Positions 4,504 to 49,507 of a DNA stretch of 64,000 nt are shown here, piece by piece. This DNA is from a virus: IMG/VR virus record IMGVR_UViG_3300002131_000176, positions 1 to 64,000 of that record, one strand, 5' to 3'. Positions within the stretch are counted from its first letter, which is position 1, and every line of letters begins with the position of its first letter. The position numbers were made by a program, and so were the translations under genes. The notes beneath the pieces are model-generated. The model did not search any database. It was not told where the DNA came from and saw only the letters and a program-made list of their open reading frames with translations.

Positions 4504-6111
4504 TTATCTTATAAAACCAGATACATTATACCTGGTGTCTACAGACGATAGCGGTGGTAATGCAAGCGCACTATTATTGCTACTTGATCGTACGCTATTA
4601 TCTTGAATTACAATTGGAGCACCATTGCCCATCCCTCGGCTACGCGACGCTGCAGCATCAGCACCCTGAGCATTTAAACTACCGATAACTGAAGCATTTT
4701 GGGGTACTGGTTTAGTCGGTGATTTATATGTAGTTGATCTTGGATCTGATACAGCATCCATTCTCACATTAGGCGTTGTTGCCAATTCATGTGATTTTGC
4801 CGCTGATTTTAATGTATCGGATTTTCCACCCAATAACCATTCAGCCAGGCTTGTCGCAAGCATATCGCCAGACAAACCACCTATTATTGCTCCAGCAATT
4901 GTTCCAAGTCCAGGTGCGACCAATGAACCAACCAATGCACCAAGGCCTGCGCCACCGATACCACCCAATATGCCAGAGACACCTTTTATCTTATCATCTT
5001 TAGAGCCGTCACCCATTAATACATTGGCAATTAGACCGGCACTGATAAGGCCACCTAGTACTGGTATTTTAGATGCAAACTTACTGAGTGCACCAAACCG
5101 TGGAAATTTCTTGGCAACTGCCGCTGCATCTGCCGCCGTGGTTGCTTGTGCAGTTTTAAGTGCAGCACCCGTAAGTGGTTTACCCGTTTTAAGACTAGTA
5201 TAATTGCCTGCCTTATCAACTTTAAACTTTCTTGGTTTGGCCGTTGTGGTGGCAGCAACAGGAGTTTTGGATGTAGTAGCGGCAGCGGCAGCGGCAGCAG
5301 GAGCTGTGGCAGCAGCGGCAGCGGCACCAGGTTTGAGTGCGGCGGCAGCAGCACTTCCCGCAATTCCAGCACCTCTAGCGGCTGTAGCGCCAGCGGCCGC
5401 AGCAAGGCCTAAAGTTCCTTTTAAAGCTTTAAATGCTAATCCTATAACACCAAGTGGTTTAAATGCAAATGCAAGTAAACCTAATGTGATACCAATATTC
5501 TTTATATCAGTACCAAAAGATTCAAAGTCACCTTCAAGGATATTGTTTAAACCTTTAAGAGCGCCATTAAACTTATTGACAATAAATGTCTGTACTTCCT
5601 TCAGTGACGGTAATTGAATACCATTCTCTGTCATGAATTTATCAGTACTGGTCATCCATCCAGTGATAGTGGTTTTAAGACTCTTAAATGCAGTACCTAT
5701 ATTGGTAAATAAACGACTGAGTTCGTCAGTGTCAACACCACTAGCAATAGTACCTATTAAGAATGCCAGGGGACCAAAGCGTAATAATAATTTACCGAAT
5801 TTAAGAAAGGATATTAAGAATCCACCTAAGATCGGGATACCAGCCAAAGCACCACCAACACCTTTAAACATATTGCCAAGACCACCAAACATTCCACCAC
5901 TGTTGGATTCACCTTTGGCTTTATCGGTCTTGACCTTCACCCCACGCTCTGCTTCTTTATCAGACTCGAGCCTGTCAAGTCTATCTGCATACAGCGTTGA
6001 TACTAGTTTATCAATATTATTTGATGTACTCTTAACACCCTCGTCGGTTGATTGAAGAATACTGTTTTGATTTACTAATGTAGTATTGATGGTTGATAGG
6101 GTTACGGCCAT
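4504..6111 (-). CDS. probable tail tape-measure/hub protein (gp29 position), 535 aa
   Basis: The protein has a helical charged N terminus (about 1-75, SNNIDKLVSTLYADRLDRLE), a long Gly-rich hydrophobic block (about 85-130, GIPILGGFLISFLKFGKLLL), an Ala/Thr/Pro low-complexity linker (about 245-295) and two further Gly-rich hydrophobic segments (about 345-365 and 375-420). Hydrophobic segments in a long helical protein are typical of tape measures. It lies directly downstream of the gp26-like ORF and its probable frameshift partner, where tailed phages usually place the tape measure. T4 gp29 is 590 aa. At the usual 1.5 angstrom per residue it would specify a tail of about 80 nm. An inner-membrane virion protein is the alternative. 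Confidence 0.5.
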   Translation of the reverse strand: MAVTLSTINTTLVNQNSILQSTDEGVKSTSNNIDKLVSTLYADRLDRLESDKEAERGVKVKTDKAKGESNSGGMFGGLGNMFKGVGGALAGIPILGGFLISFLKFGKLLLRFGPLAFLIGTIASGVDTDELSRLFTNIGTAFKSLKTTITGWMTSTDKFMTENGIQLPSLKEVQTFIVNKFNGALKGLNNILEGDFESFGTDIKNIGITLGLLAFAFKPLGVIGLAFKALKGTLGLAAAAGATAARGAGIAGSAAAAALKPGAAAAAATAPAAAAAAATTSKTPVAATTTAKPRKFKVDKAGNYTSLKTGKPLTGAALKTAQATTAADAAAVAKKFPRFGALSKFASKIPVLGGLISAGLIANVLMGDGSKDDKIKGVSGILGGIGGAGLGALVGSLVAPGLGTIAGAIIGGLSGDMLATSLAEWLLGGKSDTLKSAAKSHELATTPNVRMDAVSDPRSTTYKSPTKPVPQNASVIGSLNAQGADAAASRSRGMGNGAPIVIQDNSVRSSSNNSALALPPLSSVDTRYNVSGFIR

Positions 6112-6114
6112 TTT

Positions 6115-6300
6115 TTATCCTTGATTTGCTGCTTTATTGCGGTCATTCTTTTCTTTAATATCTTCCATTAGCATGAACAAATAGATTTCTCTCTCCCAAG
6201 GTAACATTTCTTCTATCTCAGATAATGAGTAGTGAAAGTTTTGTAGTAGTTGGAAATTTACTTTATAGTAATTCTCCAACGTTTCATGAGAGAGGCACAC
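6115..6300 (-). CDS. hub assembly/tape-measure chaperone second ORF (gp51-like), 61 codons, probably made by -1 frameshift
   Basis: The frame encodes a small helical protein (ENYYKVNFQLLQNFHYSLSE ... LPWEREIYLFMLMEDIKE) like the short proteins annotated next to gp26 in marine T4-like phages. Its only candidate start is a GTG at 6300 that overlaps the gp26-like TAG by one base. No ribosome site is present in front, because that space is a run of eight T. Reading through the T run by a -1 shift from the upstream gene joins the two frames without a gap, giving a 301-residue fusion. It is followed by the probable tape measure. Confidence 0.6.
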   Translation of the reverse strand: MCLSHETLENYYKVNFQLLQNFHYSLSEIEEMLPWEREIYLFMLMEDIKEKNDRNKAANQG

Positions 6301-6309
6301 TAAAAAAAA
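6300..6309 (-). promoter_or_regulatory. candidate -1 ribosomal frameshift site U-UUU-UUU followed by UAG
   Basis: On the minus strand the upstream gene ends GAT TTT TTT TAG. The last T of GAT plus the two TTT codons make the heptamer T-TTT-TTT in the zero frame, right next to the stop codon. A one-base backward slip gives TTA GTG TGC and enters the downstream frame. Both the heptamer type and the adjacent stop are known features of programmed -1 frameshifting. Confidence 0.6.
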
Positions 6310-7019
6310 TCTTCAAGACCCTCCAATGTTCTTACGTTTTCGTGCTGGCAATTGACACACTTGAATTTAACTTCTTGTTTAATCTTTGGTAGTGATTCAA
6401 TGAACTTATTAATCTTTTCAAACTGCTCAGATGTAAGTGATTCAATAAATGTAATAACTTCTTCACGAGGTTCATCGGCAATTTTAATTGCTTCATCTTC
6501 AGTTAACACTGTATCAATACACGATACAACAATATCAGTAAGTGATTCCACCCCTGATTTGGACTCATCAAACATTTGGATGTTTTTAATAAAGTAATTG
6601 TAATCGGGGTATTTCATTTTCACAGAGATGGTGTCTGTGATCTTAATAGTCGACTCAACATCTGGTGAGATATCAACACGTGCTTTAGAAATATCAACGG
6701 TGACTTCGTTCTGCGTATCACATTCACTGCAGTTAAAAAGTAGTTGTGTGTTTTCACCAACGGATTTTGCACGGATCTGAGCAAATAGATAATCAATATC
6801 AAATGTTGATAATTTATAGACATCAACCTCATCAACGACACAGGATTTAATTGTATCAATCATCGCCCTAATCATTGCCGTCTTATCTTTTGATTCATAT
6901 GCAATCAAAAGTGTCTTCTGTTCCTTTACGAGAAAAGGTCTGAACCTAATCTTCTTTTTCGTAGAGGGTATTACCGTATCATACTTGGGTACGGAGTTGG
7001 CCAAAATAGGTAAAGCCAT
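6300..7019 (-). CDS. gp26: gp26-like baseplate hub assembly protein (T4_baseplate family), 239 aa
   Basis: T4 gp26 takes part in baseplate hub assembly. The protein starts MALPILANSVPKYDTVIPST and continues KIRFRPFLVKEQKTLLIA, a block I associate with the T4 baseplate protein family. Two CxxC pairs (Cys97/Cys100 and Cys221/Cys224) could form a zinc ribbon. The N-terminal two thirds are alpha/beta and the C terminus is helical and acidic. The gene ends in eight T before TAG and probably shifts into the 61-codon ORF. Whether it should be named 26 or 51 relative to T4 cannot be settled by eye. Confidence 0.65.
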   Translation of the reverse strand: MALPILANSVPKYDTVIPSTKKKIRFRPFLVKEQKTLLIAYESKDKTAMIRAMIDTIKSCVVDEVDVYKLSTFDIDYLFAQIRAKSVGENTQLLFNCSECDTQNEVTVDISKARVDISPDVESTIKITDTISVKMKYPDYNYFIKNIQMFDESKSGVESLTDIVVSCIDTVLTEDEAIKIADEPREEVITFIESLTSEQFEKINKFIESLPKIKQEVKFKCVNCQHENVRTLEGLEDFF

Positions 7020-7036
7020 AATAATTTCCTTTCATT

Positions 7037-7729
7037 TCATCCAAAAATTTGTCCAGGGCTTAACGAGAAGCTCAAGAACTGTTGCGATGGTTTTACAACA
7101 TCCCATGTGGTGTAGGATAATTGCACTGATACTTCAATCAGTCCATCTTGTTCATTCGAAAAATCAATCTGTGTAATTGTAGTAGGAAATGCATCCACGA
7201 GCTTTACACTATAAACATTGCCACCACCAATGCCTACGTTAATACGTATTGGTCCAAGGCCTCCGCTTAAGCCCACCAGCGGTTTTCTTAACTGATGAAT
7301 GGTAACTGGTTTGGCGTAATTTACTTTATAACCAGGTTCGTGTGTTTTGCTATTATATGCCTGTTCCATCCACGCGTCGAAATAAGCTTTTGCACCATAG
7401 TCGTTTAAGAGATAAAACGTCATTTGAAGATCATCAACGCCGTAACCATAGGCTACCTTCTCGCCGATGTTACCAATCTGCCTGTTTGACGTAAATATTT
7501 GTTTACCTGGTAGCGTAACATTTTTACACAACAGATTTAATTCTTCAGTTGATGCTGGTCCGCCACCGCCAAGGCCTGGAATACTAGGAAGAAATGGTGT
7601 AATACTACCAAGCAATCCAGATAACCCACCACCACTTCTGAGAGGAGGTAACTCTACTAAATAATTATTAGATCTAGCAAAACCAAGTTTTGCCGAGGCC
7701 ATTCCTTTTAATTGATCAATGGTAGCCAT
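7037..7729 (-). CDS. tail-tube-fold protein (gp19/gp54-like), 230 aa
   Basis: The order of blocks is that of the phage tail-tube fold: ARSNNYLVELPP, then LCKNVTLPGKQIFTSNRQIG, a DDLQMTFYLLNDYGAKAYFD block, and a closing DFSNEQDGLIEVSVQLSYTT strand. A Gly/Pro-rich insertion (about residues 33-58) follows the first strand. T4 gp19 (tube) is 163 aa, and gp54 (tube initiator at the baseplate) is 320 aa. Location in the hub cluster, far from gp18, makes a gp54-like initiator role more likely than the major tube. Its start overlaps the end of the next upstream gene by one base. Confidence 0.6.
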   Translation of the reverse strand: MATIDQLKGMASAKLGFARSNNYLVELPPLRSGGGLSGLLGSITPFLPSIPGLGGGGPASTEELNLLCKNVTLPGKQIFTSNRQIGNIGEKVAYGYGVDDLQMTFYLLNDYGAKAYFDAWMEQAYNSKTHEPGYKVNYAKPVTIHQLRKPLVGLSGGLGPIRINVGIGGGNVYSVKLVDAFPTTITQIDFSNEQDGLIEVSVQLSYTTWDVVKPSQQFLSFSLSPGQIFG

Positions 7730-49023: not shown

Positions 49024-49307
49024 TTGACAAACCAAAAGCACTTCAATCTCTACGACCCAACGCTCAGTGGGTTCTGCGTGGCGATGTTCTTGAATGGCTG
49101 GACACTGAGCAAACGCAACCAACAGAAGCCGAAATCACAGCCGAAGTTGCTCGCCTACAAGCTGAGTACGACAACAAAGAATACCAGCGCCAACGTGCCC
49201 AAGCCTACCCATCAATTGCTGACCAGCTAGATTTAATCTACCACGAAGGCGTTGACGCTTGGAAGGCTCAGATTGCCGCAGTGAAACAGGAGTATCCAAA
49301 GCCATGA
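49020..49307 (+). CDS. fibre-associated chaperone-like protein, 95 aa
   Basis: A first part (IDKPKALQSLRPNAQWVLRG, DVLEWLDTEQTQPTEAEI) and a C-terminal YQRQRAQAYPSIADQLDLIY ... AVKQEYPKP block are typical of the small proteins that follow phage fibre genes (Rxx.YP.xxDQLDxLy pattern). The gene at 53789 shows the same C-terminal pattern. It lies in the small-ORF cassette with overlapping starts and stops. Confidence 0.65.
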   Translation: MIDKPKALQSLRPNAQWVLRGDVLEWLDTEQTQPTEAEITAEVARLQAEYDNKEYQRQRAQAYPSIADQLDLIYHEGVDAWKAQIAAVKQEYPKP

Positions 49308-49507
49308 CATTTGAACAATGGTTTGCCTCACTAGGCGGTGGCTATTATAGCTACGAAGATTTATTCCGTGAGTGCTGGGCTAACGCTACTGAAAGCGCCG
49401 CCAAGGTTGTGGATGAAATGGCAGAGGATCAAGAAAGAGAGTACGAGCCTACGCCAGCAATTCAATGGACTTTAAACAAAGCCGCAGAGATAAGGGCAAA
49501 CAAATGA
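49304..49507 (+). CDS. small acidic fibre-region protein, 67 aa
   Basis: ATG at 49304 overlaps the previous stop (ATGA) and opens 67 codons (TFEQWFASLGGGYYSYEDLF, RECWANATESAAKVVDEMAE). It is acidic and helical. No family recognised. Its stop overlaps the next fibre gene, so it is part of the coupled cassette. Confidence 0.55.
   Translation: MTFEQWFASLGGGYYSYEDLFRECWANATESAAKVVDEMAEDQEREYEPTPAIQWTLNKAAEIRANK

Follow-up and report, generated by a model that had tools for sequence, protein, structure and literature searches.

The window analysed here, a stretch of 64,000 nucleotides, is part of a 102,284-base virus record. On its minus strand a gp26-like ORF (7019..6300) lies between a gp19-like tail tube gene and a 535-aa ORF (Table 1), and its 3' end reads GAA-GAT-TTT-TTT-TAG, with the heptamer T TTT TTT (6309..6303) in frame immediately 5' of the TAG. 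After a -1 slip the same bases are read as TTT-TTT-TTA-GTG-TGC-CTC-TCT, leading into a 62-codon frame (6303..6118, stop 6117..6115) whose listed form is a 61-codon ORF with a GTG start (6115-6300). The predicted fusion product is 301 aa long with the junction EDFF-LVCLS. An earlier note on this DNA had pointed to the heptamer in frame beside the stop (GAT-TTT-TTT-TAG), to a one-base slip into the downstream frame and to a 301-residue product crossing EDFF-LVCLS, and direct reading of the sequence confirmed all three.

Table 1. Coordinates of the features at the predicted frameshift locus (window numbering).
Feature	Position	Strand	Basis or remark
gp19-like tail tube protein, upstream	7037..7729	minus	PHROG 45, E=9e-32
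gp26-like ORF, short form (TAC-N), 239 aa/codons	6300..7019	minus	PF12322, PHROG 150
SD-like GGAGGG, putative stimulator	6319..6324	minus	9 nt upstream of the heptamer
Slippery heptamer T TTT TTT	6303..6309	minus	172/174 junctions, frozen silent positions
Stop TAG of the short form	6300..6302	minus	Read directly
-1 frame, gp51-like C-terminal domain (TAC-C), 62 codons + stop	6115..6303	minus	PHROG 634, PHROG 150
Stem 5' arm CCUCUCUCA	6287..6295	minus	RNAalifold and covariation; 7 nt after the heptamer
Stem 3' arm UGGGAGAGA	6190..6198	minus	Covariation; silent two-sided changes at two pairs
Probable tape measure protein, presumed client, 535 aa	4504..6111	minus	Weak PHROG matches and gene order

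The gp26-like ORF matches PF12322 (E=1.1e-61) and positions 5-232 of PHROG 150 (E=2.4e-65). The gp51-like frame matches PHROG 634 (E=2.5e-22) as well as the end of PHROG 150 (positions 237-282); both ORFs thus match one profile, and the joined 301-aa protein spans its positions 5-282 with E=3e-78. As for the neighbors of this chaperone locus, the assignment of the tail tube gene upstream is solid (E=9e-32), and the downstream 535-aa ORF was assigned by weak matches to tape measure profiles (PHROG 23574, E=2e-5; PHROG 794, E=0.008) and by synteny with HTVC008M and phiM12. The proposal that the next gene is a tape measure, following the logic of lambda G/GT, is supported as to the mechanism, and by the weak profile matches and the gene order the gene itself is a probable tape measure gene. 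A megablast search of isolate phages gave no match to the window, an NCBIfam search gave none above the cut-off, and a search of solved structures by sequence gave no relevant match.

Comparison with phage T4 bears on how the two frames belong together. T4 gp51 (249 aa) aligns with the 301-aa fusion across the junction and nearly end to end (hhalign E=3.7e-10) and spans positions 13-280 of PHROG 150, while T4 gp26 spans positions 14-235 only and matches the gp26-like ORF within the same family profile (hhalign E 1.3e-20). Because T4 gp51 matches the fusion and gp26 matches the short form alone, we designated the gp26-like ORF TAC-N and the fusion TAC-NC; and since gp51 matches the whole fusion, T4 has a complete gene of its own for the long form. 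Gene 51 is unannotated in the T4 GT7 record, though the 249-aa ORF is present (L088:989-1738, minus strand).

The T run and the frame offset were then compared across 174 complete homologous junctions taken from 80 IMG/VR relatives, 80 P-SSM2-type relatives, two more and annotated isolates. An in-frame T TTT TTT or T TTT TTC is found at the 3' end of the gp26-like ORF or close to it in 172 of them, the same frame offset is kept, and the -1 frame is open for 54-66 codons in nearly all, with amino-acid conservation of this frame beginning at the junction. The two junctions without the heptamer belong to L177 and to a Vibrio phage filed under Ackermannviridae; near position 2250 of L177 the run is one T shorter than in the near-identical L176, which is probably a homopolymer sequencing error. 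After 60% protein dereplication, all 52 sequences have a T just ahead of the Phe pair (log10 P -8.0) and TTT as the first Phe codon (background 0.75, log10 P -6.6), where the backgrounds for T-ending codons are 0.74 (Asp), 0.68 (Asn), 0.46 (Ser) and 0.75 (Phe) and the P values treat the dereplicated sequences as independent. For the second Phe, 40 of the 52 use TTT and 12 use TTC, either of which permits a -1 slip; this TTC is the only synonymous break of the T run seen in the homologues. The slip site at the end of the gp26-like ORF exceeds chance. Among the 99 window ORFs of at least 80 aa, four carry X XXY YYZ in frame, no more than 10 codons from the stop, together with a -1 frame that passes the stop; of the other three candidates, two open just 4 codons and one enters a gene with its own ATG. 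In an ORF at 49259-49507 (plus strand), T TTA AAC stands in frame nine codons ahead of the stop, and a -1 shift there would lead into a 381-codon ORF. It is probably a case of ordinary overlap, because an ATG at 49505 gives the 381-codon ORF a start of its own.

Upstream of the heptamer, pairing with the anti-SD sequence averages -6.7 kcal/mol vs -1.1 elsewhere in the same genes, and in 87% of 77 loci it ranks within the top 10% of its own gene. The pairing is strong, though a conserved glycine imposes part of it, and relative to synonymous shuffles its mean z is -1.1. We regard GGAGGG as a putative and likely stimulator of the frameshift.

Downstream, RNAalifold on 57 sequences yielded one 9-bp helix that pairs alignment columns 39-47 with 136-144, is separated from the heptamer by a 7-nt spacer and encloses about 88 nt of C-domain coding sequence. 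The stem of the window itself has 8 bp, because C and A face each other at its outermost position (6295/6190). Column pair 39/144 is C-G in 26 sequences, U-A in 19, C-A in 12 and U-G in 0 (Fisher 3e-7), and pair 42/141 is C-G in 48, U-A in 6, U-G in 2 and C-A in 1 (Fisher 5e-6). The protein tree places about 8 double changes at the former pair and 5 at the latter, all of them silent because they fall at third codon positions. When the helix is slid by 1-3 columns the paired cells fall from 97% to 45-78%. Codon choice in the stem is also skewed: its Leu codon is CTC in 49 of 57 sequences vs a 6% background elsewhere, and its Glu codon is GAG in 50 of 57 vs 23%. The 119 nt after the heptamer in the window fold at -30.6 kcal/mol (z -3.8). 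A wide covariation scan for a pseudoknot or other helices in the stem loop found no consistent second helix, and Rfam gave no match within positions 6000-7100. The papers searched, among them works citing Vladimirov et al. (2022), yielded no account of such a stem, and its novelty is uncertain.

The helix is present in 74 of 78 window-type loci from the first scan, plus C48C1, Mosig and Melnitz. Among P-SSM2-type loci it is present in 5 of 78 (73 negative), though the heptamer is kept there, and a consensus fold of mainly P-SSM2-type sequences contained zero pairs. The downstream stem is well supported and is probably a stimulator of the frameshift. On balance we favor a reading with three parts: the window clade, C48C1, Mosig and Melnitz would share a conserved stimulatory stem without an Rfam match; P-SSM2-type phages would shift without it or also initiate internally; and the stem would, if the reading is true, set the ratio of TAC-N to TAC-NC.

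It could be argued that the two ORFs encode separate proteins and that the gp51-like ORF initiates alone, via the TAGTG stop-start overlap or translational coupling. The earlier note had seen no convincing start for this ORF, a claim that needs qualification: in the window a GTG does overlap the stop of the first ORF (TAGTG, 6300..6298), while most relatives are without it, so that this GTG is no general start. An ATG lies at codon 3 of the -1 frame in P-SSM2-type cyanophages and near the start of that frame in phiM12, PhiW-14, BUCT608 and R11Z (codon 2 or 3 in the more distant phages), and T4 has gp26 and gp51 as separate genes. Against this, 46 of 57 window-clade sequences lack any ATG, GTG or TTG in the -1 frame ahead of the conserved LSH block, and 27 of the 57 have no such codon up to and including codon 12; separate initiation therefore fails as a general explanation. 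The relatives in which an ATG was found retain the heptamer too, and freezing of its silent positions would be needless if the second protein were made alone. Some 18 nt separate the SD-like element from the GTG, a distance too great for initiation, while its distance to the heptamer is 9 nt, and T4 gp51 corresponds to the whole fused form, beyond the small domain. We consider two independently initiated proteins very improbable, with the proviso that in P-SSM2-type cyanophages, given their ATG at codon 3 and the absence of the stem from most of them, a separate start could act beside the frameshift or in its place.

The eight consecutive T's of the window might instead make RNA polymerase stutter, so that some mRNAs join the frames. 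However, T TTT TTC in 12 of the 52 dereplicated lineages leaves six T's before a C, and because about a quarter of the lineages are of this kind, polymerase slippage is disfavored; moreover, the constraint is on an in-frame heptamer, and a stem and an SD-like element at ribosomal spacings fit slippage by the ribosome. Transcriptional slippage is hence very improbable, and like separate initiation we rejected it as a general explanation, on the strength of the TTC lineages in its case and the start-codon counts in the other. Homopolymers are error prone, as the run of L177 with one T fewer than L176 illustrates, and a sequencing or assembly error could in principle split one gene in two. The same offset is nonetheless found in 172 of 174 junctions from many contigs and isolates, including the complete genomes of P-SSM2, S-PM2 and HTVC008M, and this breadth of conservation refutes such an error, which is the least credible of the three.

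We concluded that the gp26-like and gp51-like frames are very probably one chaperone in two lengths, made by a putative -1 frameshift at T TTT TTT. The joining of the two frames by a -1 shift, as first proposed from the window alone, is upheld by the conserved heptamer and offset, the frozen silent sites, the lack of a usable start in most relatives, the putative SD-like element, the stem and the match of T4 gp51 to the whole fusion. The heptamer, the offset, the silent constraint, the stem covariation and the one-piece T4 homologue are supported at the sequence level. The occurrence and rate of the shift, the part played by the stimulators and the activity as a chaperone are inferred. According to this model, the two ORFs would form one tail assembly chaperone, and most ribosomes would end at the TAG and release the 239-aa gp26-like short form (TAC-N). 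A fraction of ribosomes would pause on T TTT TTT, with GGAGGG paired to 16S rRNA behind them and the stem 7 nt further on; the Phe-tRNAs in the P and A sites would then slip one base back into the -1 frame, giving the 301-aa long form (TAC-NC) that carries the gp51-like C-terminal domain.

These results indicate that the "gp26" and "gp51" of many marine T4-like phages are a shorter and a longer form of a single chaperone, and an RNA stem may set their ratio. In public genomes gp51 is given a truncated start or omitted. The gp51-like gene is annotated at about 34-47 aa, with truncated starts, in C48C1, HTVC008M, Mosig and Melnitz, and is left out of the annotation of S-CAM1 (L081, L083, L084, L085 and L087 together).

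The E. coli dnaX cassette consists of an upstream SD-like element, a slippery heptamer and a downstream stem, and the window has a comparable three-part layout, in which the SD-like member is putative; it lies 9 nt from the heptamer, against about 9-14 nt expected for such a cassette. A covarying structure 5-9 nt past the heptamer, as in dnaX-type sites, is found here with a spacer of 7 nt, and is missing in most P-SSM2-type cyanophages. Differences are the heptamer, A AAA AAG in dnaX, the span of about 88 nt closed by the stem of the window, and the gene, a phage tail chaperone in the window. In phage lambda the tape measure protein is bound by gpG and gpGT, and the partner of the T part is the tail tube subunit (PMC5009743). 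There a -1 frameshift close to the 3' end of the chaperone gene, next to the tape measure gene, gives a short major plus a long minor form (PMC5009743), and the window resembles this system in its predicted frameshift, its probable tape measure gene and its two predicted forms; it differs in its heptamer (T TTT TTT/C), its SD-like element and its covarying stem, and no sequence relation is shown. On the model of gpG/gpGT, the two forms would together coat the tape measure protein, with tail tube subunits recruited by the C domain. The TAC locus of phage Adele (Vandenendeviridae/Andersonviridae) is described as having a conserved -1 frameshift at a poly-T GTTTTT, with the second ORF annotated as hypothetical; it belongs to other virus families and uses another motif, and the section on this locus mentions no stem (PMC12846349).

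The closest comparison is with the T4-like phages themselves, for which the earlier note knew of no description of this kind of frameshifting. Frameshifting is reportedly conserved across several T4-like groups, and the abstract of the 2022 study by Vladimirov et al. is said to name genes 26 and 51 for T4. T4-like chaperones were identified by Vladimirov, Gautam & Davidson (2022, Virology 566:9-15) according to papers citing them, including PMC12846349, a 2025 paper that also cites them for poly-T -1 signals in the TAC-N genes of T4-like phages; as cited there, the work contradicts the supposed lack of a description. Judging from the citing papers, those chaperones belong to the same families and have short and long forms and poly-T -1 signals, as here. 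Some T4-like phages have a short gene and a separate fused long gene, as Vladimirov et al. are summarized in PMC10885494, and the gp26/gp51 layout that we found in T4 agrees with that summary. In a 2010 review of T4, gp26 and gp51 figure as chaperones of hub assembly (PMC3004832). T4 thus has two separate genes, one short and one for the fused long form, whereas the window has one locus with the long form made via a predicted frameshift. The frameshift mechanism in T4-like chaperones is already known; what is added here is this lineage and the covarying stem, and the published model gains independent sequence support.
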